28,652 bases of DNA from a virus: positions 1 to 28,652 of the IMG/VR virus record IMGVR_UViG_3300050132_000377; one strand, written 5' to 3'. The translations under genes and the position numbers were made by a program. Of the stretch, positions 866 through 25,290 are shown piece by piece; the stretch's first letter is position 1; every line of letters starts with the position of its first letter. The notes under the pieces were generated by a model. The model saw only the letters and a program-made list of their open reading frames with translations, had not been told where the DNA came from and did not search any database.

Positions 866-901
866 AAAGCCCCTTTCCGTTCCCACGGTCTGGGGTTTTT
901 C
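866..901 (+). terminator. Intrinsic terminator T1 (module 1)
   Basis: The stem pairs CCCC (870-873) with GGGG (892-895) and CCGT (877-880) with ACGG (885-888), with a small internal loop, followed by a TTTTT run from 896. It ends transcription from upstream, including from the promoter at 822-850, immediately before the activator-type site at 903. Confidence 0.75.
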
Positions 902-902
902 T

Positions 903-947
903 TTTGAAGCGCTTCAAATAGAACCCACCCGCAGCATCCCGTACTAT
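903..947 (+). promoter_or_regulatory. Late promoter P1b with 16-bp activator palindrome (lysis/packaging operon)
   Basis: A perfect palindrome TTTGAAGCGCTTCAAA (903-918) is followed directly by TAGAAC (919-924, weak -35), 17 bp and TACTAT (942-947, -10). The palindrome centre lies 31.5 bp before the -10, i.e. about -43.5, overlapping the upstream edge of the -35. The same bases and spacing recur at 8776 and 15207. This is the layout of a class II activator-dependent promoter. In Mu, the C protein binds a dyad in the same place at its late promoters. The activator gene is not in the window. The predicted start near 954 leaves an 86-nt leader before the endolysin gene. Confidence 0.7.
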
Positions 948-8722: not shown

Positions 8723-8754
8723 GCAAAAAACAACTACCTCGCCCTTCTTCGATT

Positions 8755-8775
8755 CCCCCGGAGAGGGGCTTTTTA
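8755..8775 (+). terminator. Intrinsic terminator T2 (module 2)
   Basis: A short GC stem, CCCC (8756-8759) with GGGG (8765-8768), is followed by a T-run at 8770-8774. The stem is only four to five pairs and therefore weaker than T1 and T3. It ends late operon 1 and the short RNA from P2a. Confidence 0.6.
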
Positions 8776-8820
8776 TTTGAAGCCCTTCAAATAGAACTCC
8801 CCGTCGCCATCACGTAGTGT
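8776..8820 (+). promoter_or_regulatory. Late promoter P2b with activator palindrome (head/sheath operon)
   Basis: Palindrome TTTGAAGCCCTTCAAA (8776-8791; seven-base arms, two-base centre), TAGAAC at 8792-8797, 17 bp, TAGTGT at 8815-8820. The palindrome centre to -10 distance is 31.5 bp, identical to the copies at 903 and 15207. The predicted start near 8827 leaves a 24-nt leader with the SD of the protease gene (AGGGG, 8841-8845). Confidence 0.7.
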
Positions 8821-8850: not shown

Positions 8851-10011
8851 ATGACAAAGAAACTCCTCGAAATATTCAAACCCGGAACCCATACCGCCAT
8901 GGCAGGTCAGGCCCTCTCGTTCGCTGAAGCCGACCTGGCTGCTACGATCGCCGCCTATGATCCTGCCAAGCACGAAGCTCCTCTGGTCGTCGGCCATCCT
9001 ACGATCAATGCCCCGGCATACGGTTGGGTCAAGTCCTTGAGCTTTGCCGATGGCGCCATGCTGGCCGAGCCTGACCAGGTGGATGTTGCTTTTGCCGAGA
9101 TGGTCAACTCCGGCAAGTTCAAGAAGATCTCCGCCTCGTTCTATCTCCCCACTGCACCGAACAATCCTGTGCCGGGCGTTTACTATCTGCGCCATGTCGG
9201 CTTCCTGGGCGCACAGCCTCCGGCAGTCAAGGGGCTCAAGAGTGCGTCGTTTACCGAAACGGAAGACGGCGTGGTCGAGTTCGGCGATTGGGCCGACCAA
9301 GTTGAAGCCGGCCTGTTCCGCTCCTTGCGTGAATGGATCATCGGCAAGTTCAGTCTCGATGATGCGGATAAGGCGCTGCCTTCCTACGATGTCAACACGG
9401 TCGAAGGCGAAGCGGCTCGGCCTGATCCAGCTGCGCCAGGTGTCTGTGGATACTGTGGTAATCCCTGTTGTGATTGTACCTGTAATTCATCCCCCGGCCT
9501 GGCCGGATCTCAATTTTCCGAAGAACAAAAGGAGAGCCCCACTATGCTGACTTCAGCGCAGATCGCCGCCAAAGAGGTGGAATTCGCCGAGCGCGAAACC
9601 AAACTCAAACTGCAGGAAACCACAAACCGCCATACAGAGCACCTCTCGTTTGCCGAAGCCCTGGTTAAAGAGGCCAAACTGCTGCCGGCGCTTAAAGAAC
9701 AGACCGTTGCCATGCTGGACTTTGCCGCCGGTCTGGAAGGGACAAGCGTAGTCGAGTTCGGTGAAGGCGACGGCAAGAAAAGCCAGCCCCTGGTTGAATC
9801 GTTCAAGGCCTTCCTTTCCGGACAGCCCAAGATCGTCGAGTTCGGCGAGGTGGCCGGCGGTGAGGTCGAAGGTGACACCACTGCCAGCTTTGCTGCAGCT
9901 CCAGGTTACACCGTAGATGCTACATCGCTGGAGACCCATAACAAGGCCCTGGCCTACCAGACTAAAAACCCCGGCACAGAGTACATGACCGCAGTCAAGG
10001 CAGTTTCCTAA
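8851..10011 (+). CDS. Prohead protease-scaffold fusion, Mu gpI (gp32)-like (386 aa)
   Basis: Matures the prohead by proteolysis and, through its C-terminal half, scaffolds capsid assembly. I chose ATG 8851, seven bases after AGGGG, over a TTG at 8836. The protease domain is residues 1-160, with the Mu-I-type core KKISASFYLP (Ser94/Ser96) and RHVGFLGAQPPAVKGL (His115). A cluster of six cysteines lies at 199, 202, 206, 207, 209 and 211, an unusual insert. The scaffold (232-386) is helical and repeats short (V)EFGE/SFAEA motifs. A second start at Met232 has its own SD (see nested CDS). This is the first gene of late operon 2. Confidence 0.9.
   Translation: MTKKLLEIFKPGTHTAMAGQALSFAEADLAATIAAYDPAKHEAPLVVGHPTINAPAYGWVKSLSFADGAMLAEPDQVDVAFAEMVNSGKFKKISASFYLPTAPNNPVPGVYYLRHVGFLGAQPPAVKGLKSASFTETEDGVVEFGDWADQVEAGLFRSLREWIIGKFSLDDADKALPSYDVNTVEGEAARPDPAAPGVCGYCGNPCCDCTCNSSPGLAGSQFSEEQKESPTMLTSAQIAAKEVEFAERETKLKLQETTNRHTEHLSFAEALVKEAKLLPALKEQTVAMLDFAAGLEGTSVVEFGEGDGKKSQPLVESFKAFLSGQPKIVEFGEVAGGEVEGDTTASFAAAPGYTVDATSLETHNKALAYQTKNPGTEYMTAVKAVS
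9544..10011 (+). CDS. Nested scaffold protein, Mu gpZ-like, from internal start (155 aa)
   Basis: An in-frame ATG at 9544 (codon 232 of the protease gene) is preceded by AAAAGGAG at 9527-9534, nine bases upstream, an excellent ribosome binding site inside a coding region. The product is the helical scaffold half alone (MLTSAQIAAKEVEF...). In Mu the 3' part of gene I is likewise translated separately as scaffold Z, so a high scaffold:protease ratio can be made from one mRNA. The internal start is seen in the sequence. Its use is inferred. Confidence 0.75.
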   Translation: MLTSAQIAAKEVEFAERETKLKLQETTNRHTEHLSFAEALVKEAKLLPALKEQTVAMLDFAAGLEGTSVVEFGEGDGKKSQPLVESFKAFLSGQPKIVEFGEVAGGEVEGDTTASFAAAPGYTVDATSLETHNKALAYQTKNPGTEYMTAVKAVS

Positions 10012-11409: not shown

Positions 11410-11703
11410 ATGGCACTAAAACTTTATCTGGTCCTGTCGCCGATCCTGGCCGACAAGCGTTATGAGGAAGGTGATACCATTACCCTGGAAGATAAGGCCG
11501 CCCTGGAGCTGCAAGGTTTAGGTGCGATCGGAGAATCAAGCGGGGATGCACCTGTGCCTGGCAAGCTTTCGGCAACCGATGCGATCGCTCAGATCAAGGC
11601 TGCTGCAACTGTTGAAGAGGTGAATGCCATCCTTGGCGATGATAGCCGTGCGACGGTTGTCGCTGCCGCAACTGTTCGCACAACTGAACTGGCCTCGGTC
11701 TAA
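11410..11703 (+). CDS. Mu gp35-like small head protein (97 aa), hypothetical
   Basis: ATG 11410 follows AAAGGA (11395-11400) at nine bases. The longer frame from 11257 runs inside the capsid gene and through the REP-like hairpin and is rejected. Residues 1-38 (KLYLVLSPILADKRYEEGDTITLEDKAALEL) look like a small beta domain seen in phage proteins of this position. Residues 52-97 look like a helical repeat (DAIAQIKAAATVEEVNAILG). The exact function is unknown. By order it matches Mu gp35. Confidence 0.7.
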   Translation: MALKLYLVLSPILADKRYEEGDTITLEDKAALELQGLGAIGESSGDAPVPGKLSATDAIAQIKAAATVEEVNAILGDDSRATVVAAATVRTTELASV

Positions 11704-15172: not shown

Positions 15173-15206
15173 AAGCCCCTTTCCTTACCGGATCGGGGCT
15201 TTTTTA
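15173..15206 (+). terminator. Intrinsic terminator T3 (module 3)
   Basis: AAGCCCC (15173-15179) pairs with GGGGCTT (15195-15201), with an inner TCC/GGA pairing, followed by a run of T to 15205. It ends late operon 2 and the short RNA from the promoter at 15128. Confidence 0.8.
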
Positions 15207-15251
15207 TTTGAAGCCCTTCAAATAGAAACCGCCTTCCCCTCCACGTATTAT
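15207..15251 (+). promoter_or_regulatory. Late promoter P3b with activator palindrome (tail operon)
   Basis: TTTGAAGCCCTTCAAA (15207-15222), TAGAAA (15223-15228), 17 bp, TATTAT (15246-15251). Centre-to--10 distance is 31.5 bp, as in the other two copies. The predicted start is 15257-15258, so the tape-measure ATG at 15260 has a leader of at most about three bases. Confidence 0.72.
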
Positions 15252-15259
15252 TCCCCATC

Positions 15260-17110
15260 ATGGCTGATATGAAACTCTTTATAGAGCTGCTCGCTCGTTC
15301 CACTAGTCTGAAACGGGAACTGAAAGATTCCGAACAGGGCTTTCAGCGTTTCGGCACTGTTGCCAAGCGCGAGATGGCATCCATTCGCCAATCGGCCCGT
15401 TCACTGGGCGGAGTCCTGGCGGGGCTCGGCGTTTCGTTGAGCGCCCTAAAAGGGTTCCAGGCATCTACCGGCCTTCAAGAGGCCGTTCTCGATGTCAAGA
15501 TGAACCTTCAGGAAGCCGGCGGCGATGCCGGGGTGCTCAACAAACAGCTGGATCGAGTCCGGCAAACCGCCAGCGTCATCCAGAAACAGATGCCCTTCGG
15601 CGCCATGGAAGTGGTCGGGATCGAAAACGTGCTGCTCAAGGCCGGTCTCAAGATGGAGGACGTCGCCTCAAAAAGCGGCGCCGCCTGGGCAGCGGCAGCG
15701 CTCGCCACCATCTCCAAGGAAGCGCCGGCGGCGATGGGCGAAGGACTGGTCGCCATGGCGTCGCCGTTCAACATCAAGGGCGATCAGTACGGCGACCTGG
15801 CCAACTATATTCAGAAGGTGGATCAAGCCTCAGTTGCCAAGATCCCCGACCTGGTCGAGGGAATGAAATACGTTGCCGGCACGGCCGCCAATATGAAAGT
15901 CCCCGCCCAGGACATCCTCCGCGCCATGGGTGCAATGAGTCAGCAGGGTATGCGCGGCTCCATGGCTGGTACTTCGCTGAATGACTTCCTGATCCGGATG
16001 GTCGGCACCTCCCGCATCGCCCGTAAGGTTATGGGGGCGCTCAACCAGGAACTCGGCCGCACCGGGAAACAAAAGCTCGAATTTTTCGATAAAAAAGGGA
16101 CTCTTAAATCGTTCAACACTATCATCCCGGAGATGCGCAAATCGCTGGTTGGTATGACCGATCAAAAGAAACTCTTCGTCATGGAGAAAATCTTCGGCGA
16201 ACAGGGCGGCCGTGCCGCATTTGCCCTGATCCATGAAGGTGCGGGATCATGGGAGGAGGTCGGCGAAAACATCAGCAAGGCAGCCGATATGCAGACCAAG
16301 CTTAACACCCGCATGGAGGGTTTTTCTGCCAACCTCAAATCACTGATAGGGACGGCTCAGACAACAGCAGCCGCAATCTTTGATCCCTGGCTGGGATTCC
16401 TCACCAAGATCGTTGCGAAAACCAATGAGGCAACCGACGCCATCGGCAAGTTCGCCGAAAAGAATCCATCGAAACTGCTGCCGATCGCCGGGGCGGGCCT
16501 TGTCGTTGGCGGGCTTTTAGCGGGCAAGTATGGTGCCCGTGGTTTGGGTGCGCTCTTGAAAGGCGGAGCATCCACCGCCCTCGGCGTGGCCGAAGGCAAA
16601 GCCCTCCAGGCCGCAGCCGGAGTAACCCCGGTTTTTGTCACCAACTGGCCTGTCACTCTGGGCGGTTCTGCTGTTGTTGATGCGCTCGGTGGAGTTGCTG
16701 GTGGCGCTGCTGCAGGTGGAGGCAAAAAAGCGGCCGGTTGGATGATGCGCAAATTTGGGCTACTGGCGGGATCTTCCATGGGGCTTGCCTCCACGGAGCT
16801 GCTCCCTTTACTGCTTGCCGGAGGAGCTGGCTATGGTGTCGGCACCGGCCTCAATTATGGGCTCGGTGGTCTGTCTGGCTGGGCAAGCGGTGGCAAGTAC
16901 AAGGGCACAGGCTGGGCCGGGGATCAAGTTTACGACATGTTCCACCCGGAACCGGCGAAGGGCTTTCAGAAGAACGAAATCAAGATTGACCTGCAGATCG
17001 ACAGTGCCGGCCGTATCTTTGCCCGCAGCAACGATATGAACACCAGCGCCGGCATCGGCGGCAAACGCGGCAGTTTCTTTGATGCCCTCCTGACTACGGA
17101 GGCGATGTAA
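15260..17110 (+). CDS. Tail tape measure protein, Mu gp42-like (616 aa)
   Basis: Sets tail length and later passes through the tube. The N-terminal 360 residues look like the TP901-type tape measure core: helical, with IRQSARSLGGVLAGLG, FGAMEVVGIENVLLKAGLK, AAMGEGLVAMASPF, QDILRAMGAMSQQGMRGSMAGTSLNDFLIRMVG and FGEQGGRAAFALI. Residues about 395-560 are Gly/Ala-rich hydrophobic stretches that may be membrane-active. There is no Shine-Dalgarno before ATG 15260 (or ATG 15269), consistent with a leaderless mRNA from the promoter at 15207-15251. At 616 residues it is short for a contractile-tailed phage, implying a short tail. Confidence 0.92.
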   Translation: MADMKLFIELLARSTSLKRELKDSEQGFQRFGTVAKREMASIRQSARSLGGVLAGLGVSLSALKGFQASTGLQEAVLDVKMNLQEAGGDAGVLNKQLDRVRQTASVIQKQMPFGAMEVVGIENVLLKAGLKMEDVASKSGAAWAAAALATISKEAPAAMGEGLVAMASPFNIKGDQYGDLANYIQKVDQASVAKIPDLVEGMKYVAGTAANMKVPAQDILRAMGAMSQQGMRGSMAGTSLNDFLIRMVGTSRIARKVMGALNQELGRTGKQKLEFFDKKGTLKSFNTIIPEMRKSLVGMTDQKKLFVMEKIFGEQGGRAAFALIHEGAGSWEEVGENISKAADMQTKLNTRMEGFSANLKSLIGTAQTTAAAIFDPWLGFLTKIVAKTNEATDAIGKFAEKNPSKLLPIAGAGLVVGGLLAGKYGARGLGALLKGGASTALGVAEGKALQAAAGVTPVFVTNWPVTLGGSAVVDALGGVAGGAAAGGGKKAAGWMMRKFGLLAGSSMGLASTELLPLLLAGGAGYGVGTGLNYGLGGLSGWASGGKYKGTGWAGDQVYDMFHPEPAKGFQKNEIKIDLQIDSAGRIFARSNDMNTSAGIGGKRGSFFDALLTTEAM

Positions 17111-24925: not shown

Positions 24926-24973
24926 GGGGGTGTTTAAGGGCATTAAAATGAGCCTTAAAACCCCCTTCTTTTT
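24926..24973 (+). terminator. Intrinsic terminator T4 after the Dam gene
   Basis: GGGGG...TTTAAGG (24926-24939) pairs with CCTTAAA...CCCCC (24953-24965) with a small bulge, followed by TTCTTTTT. It ends the tail operon. As in the three late modules, the T-run leads directly into a TTTGAAG palindrome. Confidence 0.75.
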
Positions 24974-24986
24974 GAAGTGCTTCACT
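24971..24986 (+). promoter_or_regulatory. Degenerate fourth copy of the late activator palindrome
   Basis: TTTGAAGTGCTTCACT keeps the left arm and the GAAG/CTTC core of TTTGAAGnnCTTCAAA but loses the last two bases of the right arm and the TAGAA extension. At the expected -10 position (25010-25015, AAAATC) there is no good hexamer. No gene follows before the probable phage end. It may be a remnant promoter of a lost right-end gene, or chance conservation next to the terminator. Confidence 0.4.
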
Positions 24987-25160
24987 GCCAAAGCAGATGT
25001 GAATCGCTGAAAATCACTGCCAAACCAATCGGCGCGCTACAATAAGCGATAACGCGTCCGGTGTGCTTTATTGAAATATGTTCTTTATGAAATAAAAACA
25101 CTGGTACTAGGTAGGGCAGCCAGCACATTAAACATCAGCTGCGTCAGATCTGCGTCAGAA
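24982..25160. other. Probable prophage right end: non-coding, short direct repeats
   Basis: No gene is supported here. TCACTGCCAAA occurs twice, at 24982-24992 and 25014-25024 (32 bp apart), and CTTTATTGAAATA (25066-25078) is followed by CTTTATGAAATA (25083-25094). Short tandem repeats of this kind could be transposase-binding sites, as at Mu ends. GCGTCAGA also repeats near 25141 and 25152. The terminal dinucleotide and target duplication cannot be fixed because the left end is not in the window. Confidence 0.4.
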
Positions 25161-25214: not shown

Positions 25215-25290
25215 TGGTGGGCACAGTTGGGATCGAACCAACGACCTGCCGATTAAGAGTCGGCTGCTCTACCAGCTAAGCTATGTGCCC
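25215..25290 (-). tRNA. tRNA-Lys (anticodon CTT)
   Basis: A full 76-nt cloverleaf on the minus strand: acceptor GGGCACA/TGTGCCC, D-arm GCTT...GAGC, anticodon stem GCCGA/TCGGC with loop CTCTTAA (anticodon CTT, reading AAG), T-arm GTTGG-TTCGATC-CCAAC, and an encoded ACCA end. It accounts for the chance ORF ending in the peptide LGSNQRPAD on the plus strand. Confidence 0.97.

Follow-up and report, generated by a model that had tools for sequence, protein, structure and literature searches.

The window analysed here is a 28,652-nucleotide stretch of viral DNA (IMG/VR record IMGVR_UViG_3300050132_000377, positions 1 to 28,652). It belongs to a Mu-like phage, with the Mu gp27, portal, F and GpP families all present, and reaches the right end of the phage near 25.1 kb, beyond which lies host DNA. 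Three late operons are encoded on the plus strand. The first starts with an endolysin that has GH108 and peptidoglycan-binding domains (962–1660; PF05838, 4e-14; PF09374, 4e-11; likely start codon ATG at 1040), followed by packaging genes. The second starts with a Mu I-like head maturation protease (8869–10011; PHROG 976, E = 1.1e-121) and continues with the capsid and the contractile sheath; sheath and tube are both found here. The third starts at the tail tape measure gene (15260–17110; PF10145, 7e-29; PHROG 28), with baseplate genes behind it.

Each of these operons is preceded by the same short element. The original prediction of a palindrome plus TAGAA at 903, 8776 and 15207, placed before lysis/packaging, head/sheath and tail genes, was borne out by an exact scan of the whole window and by the Pfam and PHROG matches of the genes behind. 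The pattern TTTGAAGnnCTTCAAATAGAA matches exactly at 903–918, 8776–8791 and 15207–15222, and the palindrome TTTGAAGnnCTTCAAA has exactly three copies in the window, each followed by TAGAA. In dinucleotide shuffles, there were on average 0.97 operator matches with up to three mismatches allowed. All three operators are on the plus strand and consist of the arms TTTGA and TCAAA around a 6-bp spacer, AGCGCT in operator 1 and AGCCCT in operators 2 and 3.

The operators are followed by a weak −35-like sequence and a −10 sequence. By direct reading, these are TAGAAC (919–924) and TACTAT (942–947) at the lysis/packaging promoter, TAGAAC (8792–8797) and TAGTGT (8815–8820) at the head promoter, and TAGAAA (15223–15228) and TATTAT (15246–15251) at the tail promoter, the last pair also being found by the promoter scan. 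Site 3 was the only one to pass the sigma70 scan. From the operator centres at 910.5, 8783.5 and 15214.5, the distance to the −10 is 31.5 bp in all three cases, and TAGAAm (at 919, 8792 and 15223) invariably stands 17 bp upstream of the −10, both as originally described. A feature absent from that description is an intrinsic terminator, a GC-rich hairpin followed by a run of T, which adjoins every one of the three operators, although the terminator scanner lists two of the three. Terminator 1 (866–902, plus strand) was read directly as AAAGCCCC..TGGGGTTTTTC, with a terminator-like site at 881–895; terminator 2 (8741–8775, plus strand) has an 11-pair stem at 8741–8769 followed by TTTTTA; and terminator 3 (15174–15206, plus strand) reads AAGCCCC..CGGGGCTTTTTTA.

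A near-match with two mismatches at 24971 was considered as a fourth late promoter but discarded, since it is embedded in CACTGCCAAA repeats at the right end of the phage and has no late operon behind it. This right end (24971–25030) contains TTTGAAGTGCTTCACTGCCAAA with a second copy of TCACTGCCAAA 32 bp on; these repeats are probably transposase-binding sites, and the element recurs near the end of a related contig, G010. The last phage gene (24146–24919) encodes a D12-class adenine methyltransferase (2.9e-17), which is also found in B3 and other Mu-like phages. Just past the right end is a tRNA-Lys (CTT) gene on the minus strand (25215–25290).

Conservation of the elements in related phages

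In an exact scan with the 21-mer, matches came from six other viral contigs (seven stretches) and from several Geobacteraceae or Deltaproteobacteria MAG contigs. The phage-like matches are located downstream of a terminator-like hairpin and upstream of late genes. Exact matches in unrelated MAGs (L015–L019 and L021–L025), with neither a terminator nor a phage late gene, were set aside as chance. A search of related prophages had been proposed along with the original prediction, and the palindrome was indeed found at the same three places in relatives. With mismatches allowed, G001 and G009 have all three sites, about 7–8.5 kb apart as in the window.

An alignment was made of 26 distinct sites, three of them from the window. 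Positions T2, T3, G4, A5, A6, T11, T12, C13, T17 and A18 are invariant, and TAnnnT or a close form is present in 25 of the 26 sites, at +39 in 22 and at +40 in three. In three sites of the MAG G086, positions 7 and 10 change jointly from G-C to T-A, as expected of a dyad, and single-sided changes occur too. The arrangement of terminator followed by site is found at most of the related sites, with TAGAA also conserved.

The next gene at the aligned sites is a lysis, protease or tape measure gene, except at the protease promoter of G009 and G007. There (G009:C32:21681 and G007:C494), a 155-aa ferritin-like ORF (MKGNPDII..) lies between the protease promoter and the head genes and is apparently cargo under late control. 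The third site goes with the contractile-tail module: none was found in G132, G010 and G086, contigs that have other tail genes, and more distant tape measure relatives (30–50% identity) had no dyad before that gene. G086 also has two lysis-type promoters in tandem on contig C48 (L202 and L203) and a third on C53 (L204), with TTTGAATCCATTCAAATAGAA common to all.

A Mor/C-family candidate for the activator

Almost all relative contigs that extend sufficiently to the left have one gene of the Mor/C family, PF08765 (G001, G004, G005, G009, G010, G017 and G078 in a profile search, with E-values of 1e-14 and 4e-19 for two of the members). The proteins of G009 and G010 are 115–125 aa long. It sits after gemA-like genes, which is the place of mor in Mu. 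The suggestion that a Mor/C-like gene would be found to the left of the window region thus held in the relatives’ contigs, but the proposed “not yet described C-like activator” gives way to an ordinary member of the Mor/C family. No second Mor/C gene corresponding to C was found downstream in the relative contigs searched with PF08765. The window starts downstream of the expected position of the activator gene, which thus falls outside it, and the window’s own phage presumably carries that gene to the left. The MAG G086, which may be incomplete, has variant sites and no PF08765 match, and a phmmer search of the PDB with a single Mor/C member gave no useful match.

The Mor/C proteins that go with the TTTGA class of operator form one clade (98/98) with two subfamilies. 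An out-of-sample test of the linkage between operator and activator, comprising one new contig, came from L226, which was found in a scan of viral contigs solely via its Mor protein. It has the operator before both its lysis gene and its protease gene: the lysis site, TTTGAAGCGCTTCAAGTAGAA, follows a terminator, and the protease site, ATTGAAGCGCTTCAAATAGCA, about 85 bp upstream of the gene, has no terminator and a poor −10, GAATGT. Loci from a further protein-based scan of viral contigs mostly end just past the activator gene and were left out.

In three of the relatives, G001 (L063/L064), G005 (L069) and G004 (L070), the interval from the Mor/C gene to the first late promoter contains a diversity-generating retroelement. 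This element includes two DUF1566-like variable proteins, an Avd protein (PHROG 3206, 1e-31) and a reverse transcriptase, and is absent from the window.

Proposed mode of action and alternative readings

A dimer of the phage Mu protein Mor binds a 16-bp element in which 6 bp separate two inverted repeats of 5 bp each; at the middle promoter Pm, this element is centred at −43.5 and takes the place of a −35 (PMC4390567). The C protein of Mu, which is related to Mor, has related dyads as its binding sites at Plys, PI, PP and Pmom (PMC4287176). The window sites share the 16-bp plan of the Mor site, with 5-bp arms, a 6-bp spacer and a centre at about −43.5 (given a normal distance from the −10 to +1), and the PF08765 gene of the relatives similarly closes the set of early genes, behind gemA. 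Unlike Pm, there are three late promoters here instead of one middle promoter, the sequence of the arms is different, and no C gene was found. What the window shares with the C-dependent promoters is that late promoters preceding lysis and protease genes are controlled by a dyad, with an activator from the Mor/C family (PMC4287176, PMC4461284). It differs from them in having another operator word in nearly identical copies and in that one activator apparently does both jobs. The window’s word is not found in the Mu Plys and PI regions. The original prediction of a functional counterpart of the C-controlled promoters stands as regards a class of late promoters with an operator word unrelated to those of Plys and PI, but the geometry was already known from Mor at Pm (PMC4390567).

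The position of the third promoter apparently differs as well, being before the tape measure gene in the window and before gene P in Mu.

What can be read directly in the DNA is the elements and their spacing, the fact that they are conserved in front of the same operons, and the presence of a linked Mor/C gene in relatives. Together, these features make it very probable that the three elements serve a Mu-like phage as late promoters and that its single PF08765 protein activates them. That the protein binds and activates at these sites is inferred from the same features. A Mor/C dimer would sit on the TTTGA and TCAAA arms, 6 bp apart and beside a poor −35, and would recruit sigma70 RNA polymerase to the TAnnnT −10, as Mor does at Pm. 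The upstream terminator would insulate each operon from its neighbor. In this way, one protein made early could switch on the lysis/packaging, head/sheath and tail genes together. Since no separate C gene was found, the Mor-to-C-to-late cascade of Mu seems to have been shortened to one step.

A perfect dyad beside a promoter would fit a repressor equally well, and the sites are found in prophage. The dyad might then be an operator for a phage immunity or host repressor that silences the late genes in the prophage. However, the sites keep a constant phasing to the −10 beside a poor −35, as is typical of activators; their geometry matches that of Mor; they are accompanied by a Mor/C gene; and among the relatives examined no copy of the operator was found in the early region, all of which makes a repressor quite unlikely. 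The presence of the exact pattern in Geobacteraceae MAGs would instead be expected if the phage had borrowed an activator from its host. Yet the convincing MAG matches precede phage late genes, while the remaining exact matches come from unrelated taxa, have no promoter context and look like chance. Any match at all was found in only nine of 76 genomes of the family, several of them without promoter context, and a host activator is considered very improbable.

The palindrome also abuts an intrinsic terminator, as it might if it acted as an RNA hairpin, within the terminator or a leader, and not as a protein site. Little RNA should contain it, however, since it lies downstream of the T-run and upstream of the −10. 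Conservation also extends to the neighboring TAGAA and to the distance from the −10, and in other phages this position is occupied by a dyad with another sequence, so that an RNA hairpin is a most improbable explanation. Late promoters with a new operator, activated by a Mor/C protein, remain the best reading of the sites.

Operators of other Mu-like phages and the question of specificity

A perfect 5-6-5 dyad is present at −95 to −60 upstream of 20 of 51 distinct protease genes, compared to 1–7 in control windows and 1.5 in shuffles. The dyad words follow lineage (GCGGA, ACTGA/ACCGA, GCTGA and TTTAA), and a phage often has its word again ahead of its lysis or tail operon. The window’s word is missing from most other Mu-like phages, but many have another dyad at the same place. 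Such different dyads at the same places point to lineage-specific operators, so the window’s operator would be one of several that make up a single family.

Phage B3 has exactly three copies of TTTCGnnnnnnCGAAA, at 11567, 19836 and 26819, before the holin, protease and tape measure genes. For its relative Fc02, RNA-seq after induction revealed an early operon with mor as its last gene and three forward late clusters, the first of which begins at the holin-endolysin genes (PMC9936078). The window group resembles these Beetreviruses in having a single Mor gene at the end of the early operon, three dyads (as read in B3) and three late clusters (as seen in Fc02). B3 differs in its half-site, TTTCG, in its recognition helix, TEDWIY, and in the inversion of its early operon. 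No description of the B3 dyads was found in the literature consulted.

The Mor proteins of B3 (L212) and of JBD67 and its siblings (L216–L224) are nearly identical and differ mainly in the recognition helix. In JBD67, PM105 and other B3 siblings, TEDWIYSV is replaced by SEGLIYEI, and the operators differ where they can be read. B3 and its siblings may possibly represent a natural switch in specificity, although the change in helix and operator counts as one event and the dyads of the siblings are weak.

A recognition code for the Mor/C family can be proposed tentatively, with some leaning towards doubt: an arginine as residue 3 of the helix ([ST]xR) would specify G at position 4 of the half-site, and other residues would specify other bases. 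Arginine accompanies the G4 half-sites TTTGA, GCTGA, ACTGA and GCGGA; glutamine or valine accompanies A4 (TTTAA, CTTAA); and the aspartate of B3 accompanies C4 (TTTCG). The association is found in 25 of 25 phages compared, but it is not significant, as there are only three changes on the tree and one well-supported independent pair. The code is weakened further by the dyads of D3112, Bhz63 and MuM16-1, which are imperfect and were picked out manually among repeated stretches. If the code were true, Mu-like late regulons could be predicted, and their activators paired with them, from sequence alone.

No earlier description of these operators was found in the open-access literature. The mechanism belongs to a known kind; what is new, to the extent that this literature shows, is the operator, the apparent one-step control of the late genes and the lineage-specific words. 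For one group of Mu-like phages, known here almost only from environmental contigs, the analysis supplies the operator word together with the family of the regulator and the full late regulon of three promoters. The different dyads at the same places, including those of B3, make DNA recognition by Mor/C proteins testable with few constructs. In this group, the arrangement suggests that one Mor-like protein is able to replace the Mor-plus-C cascade of Mu.
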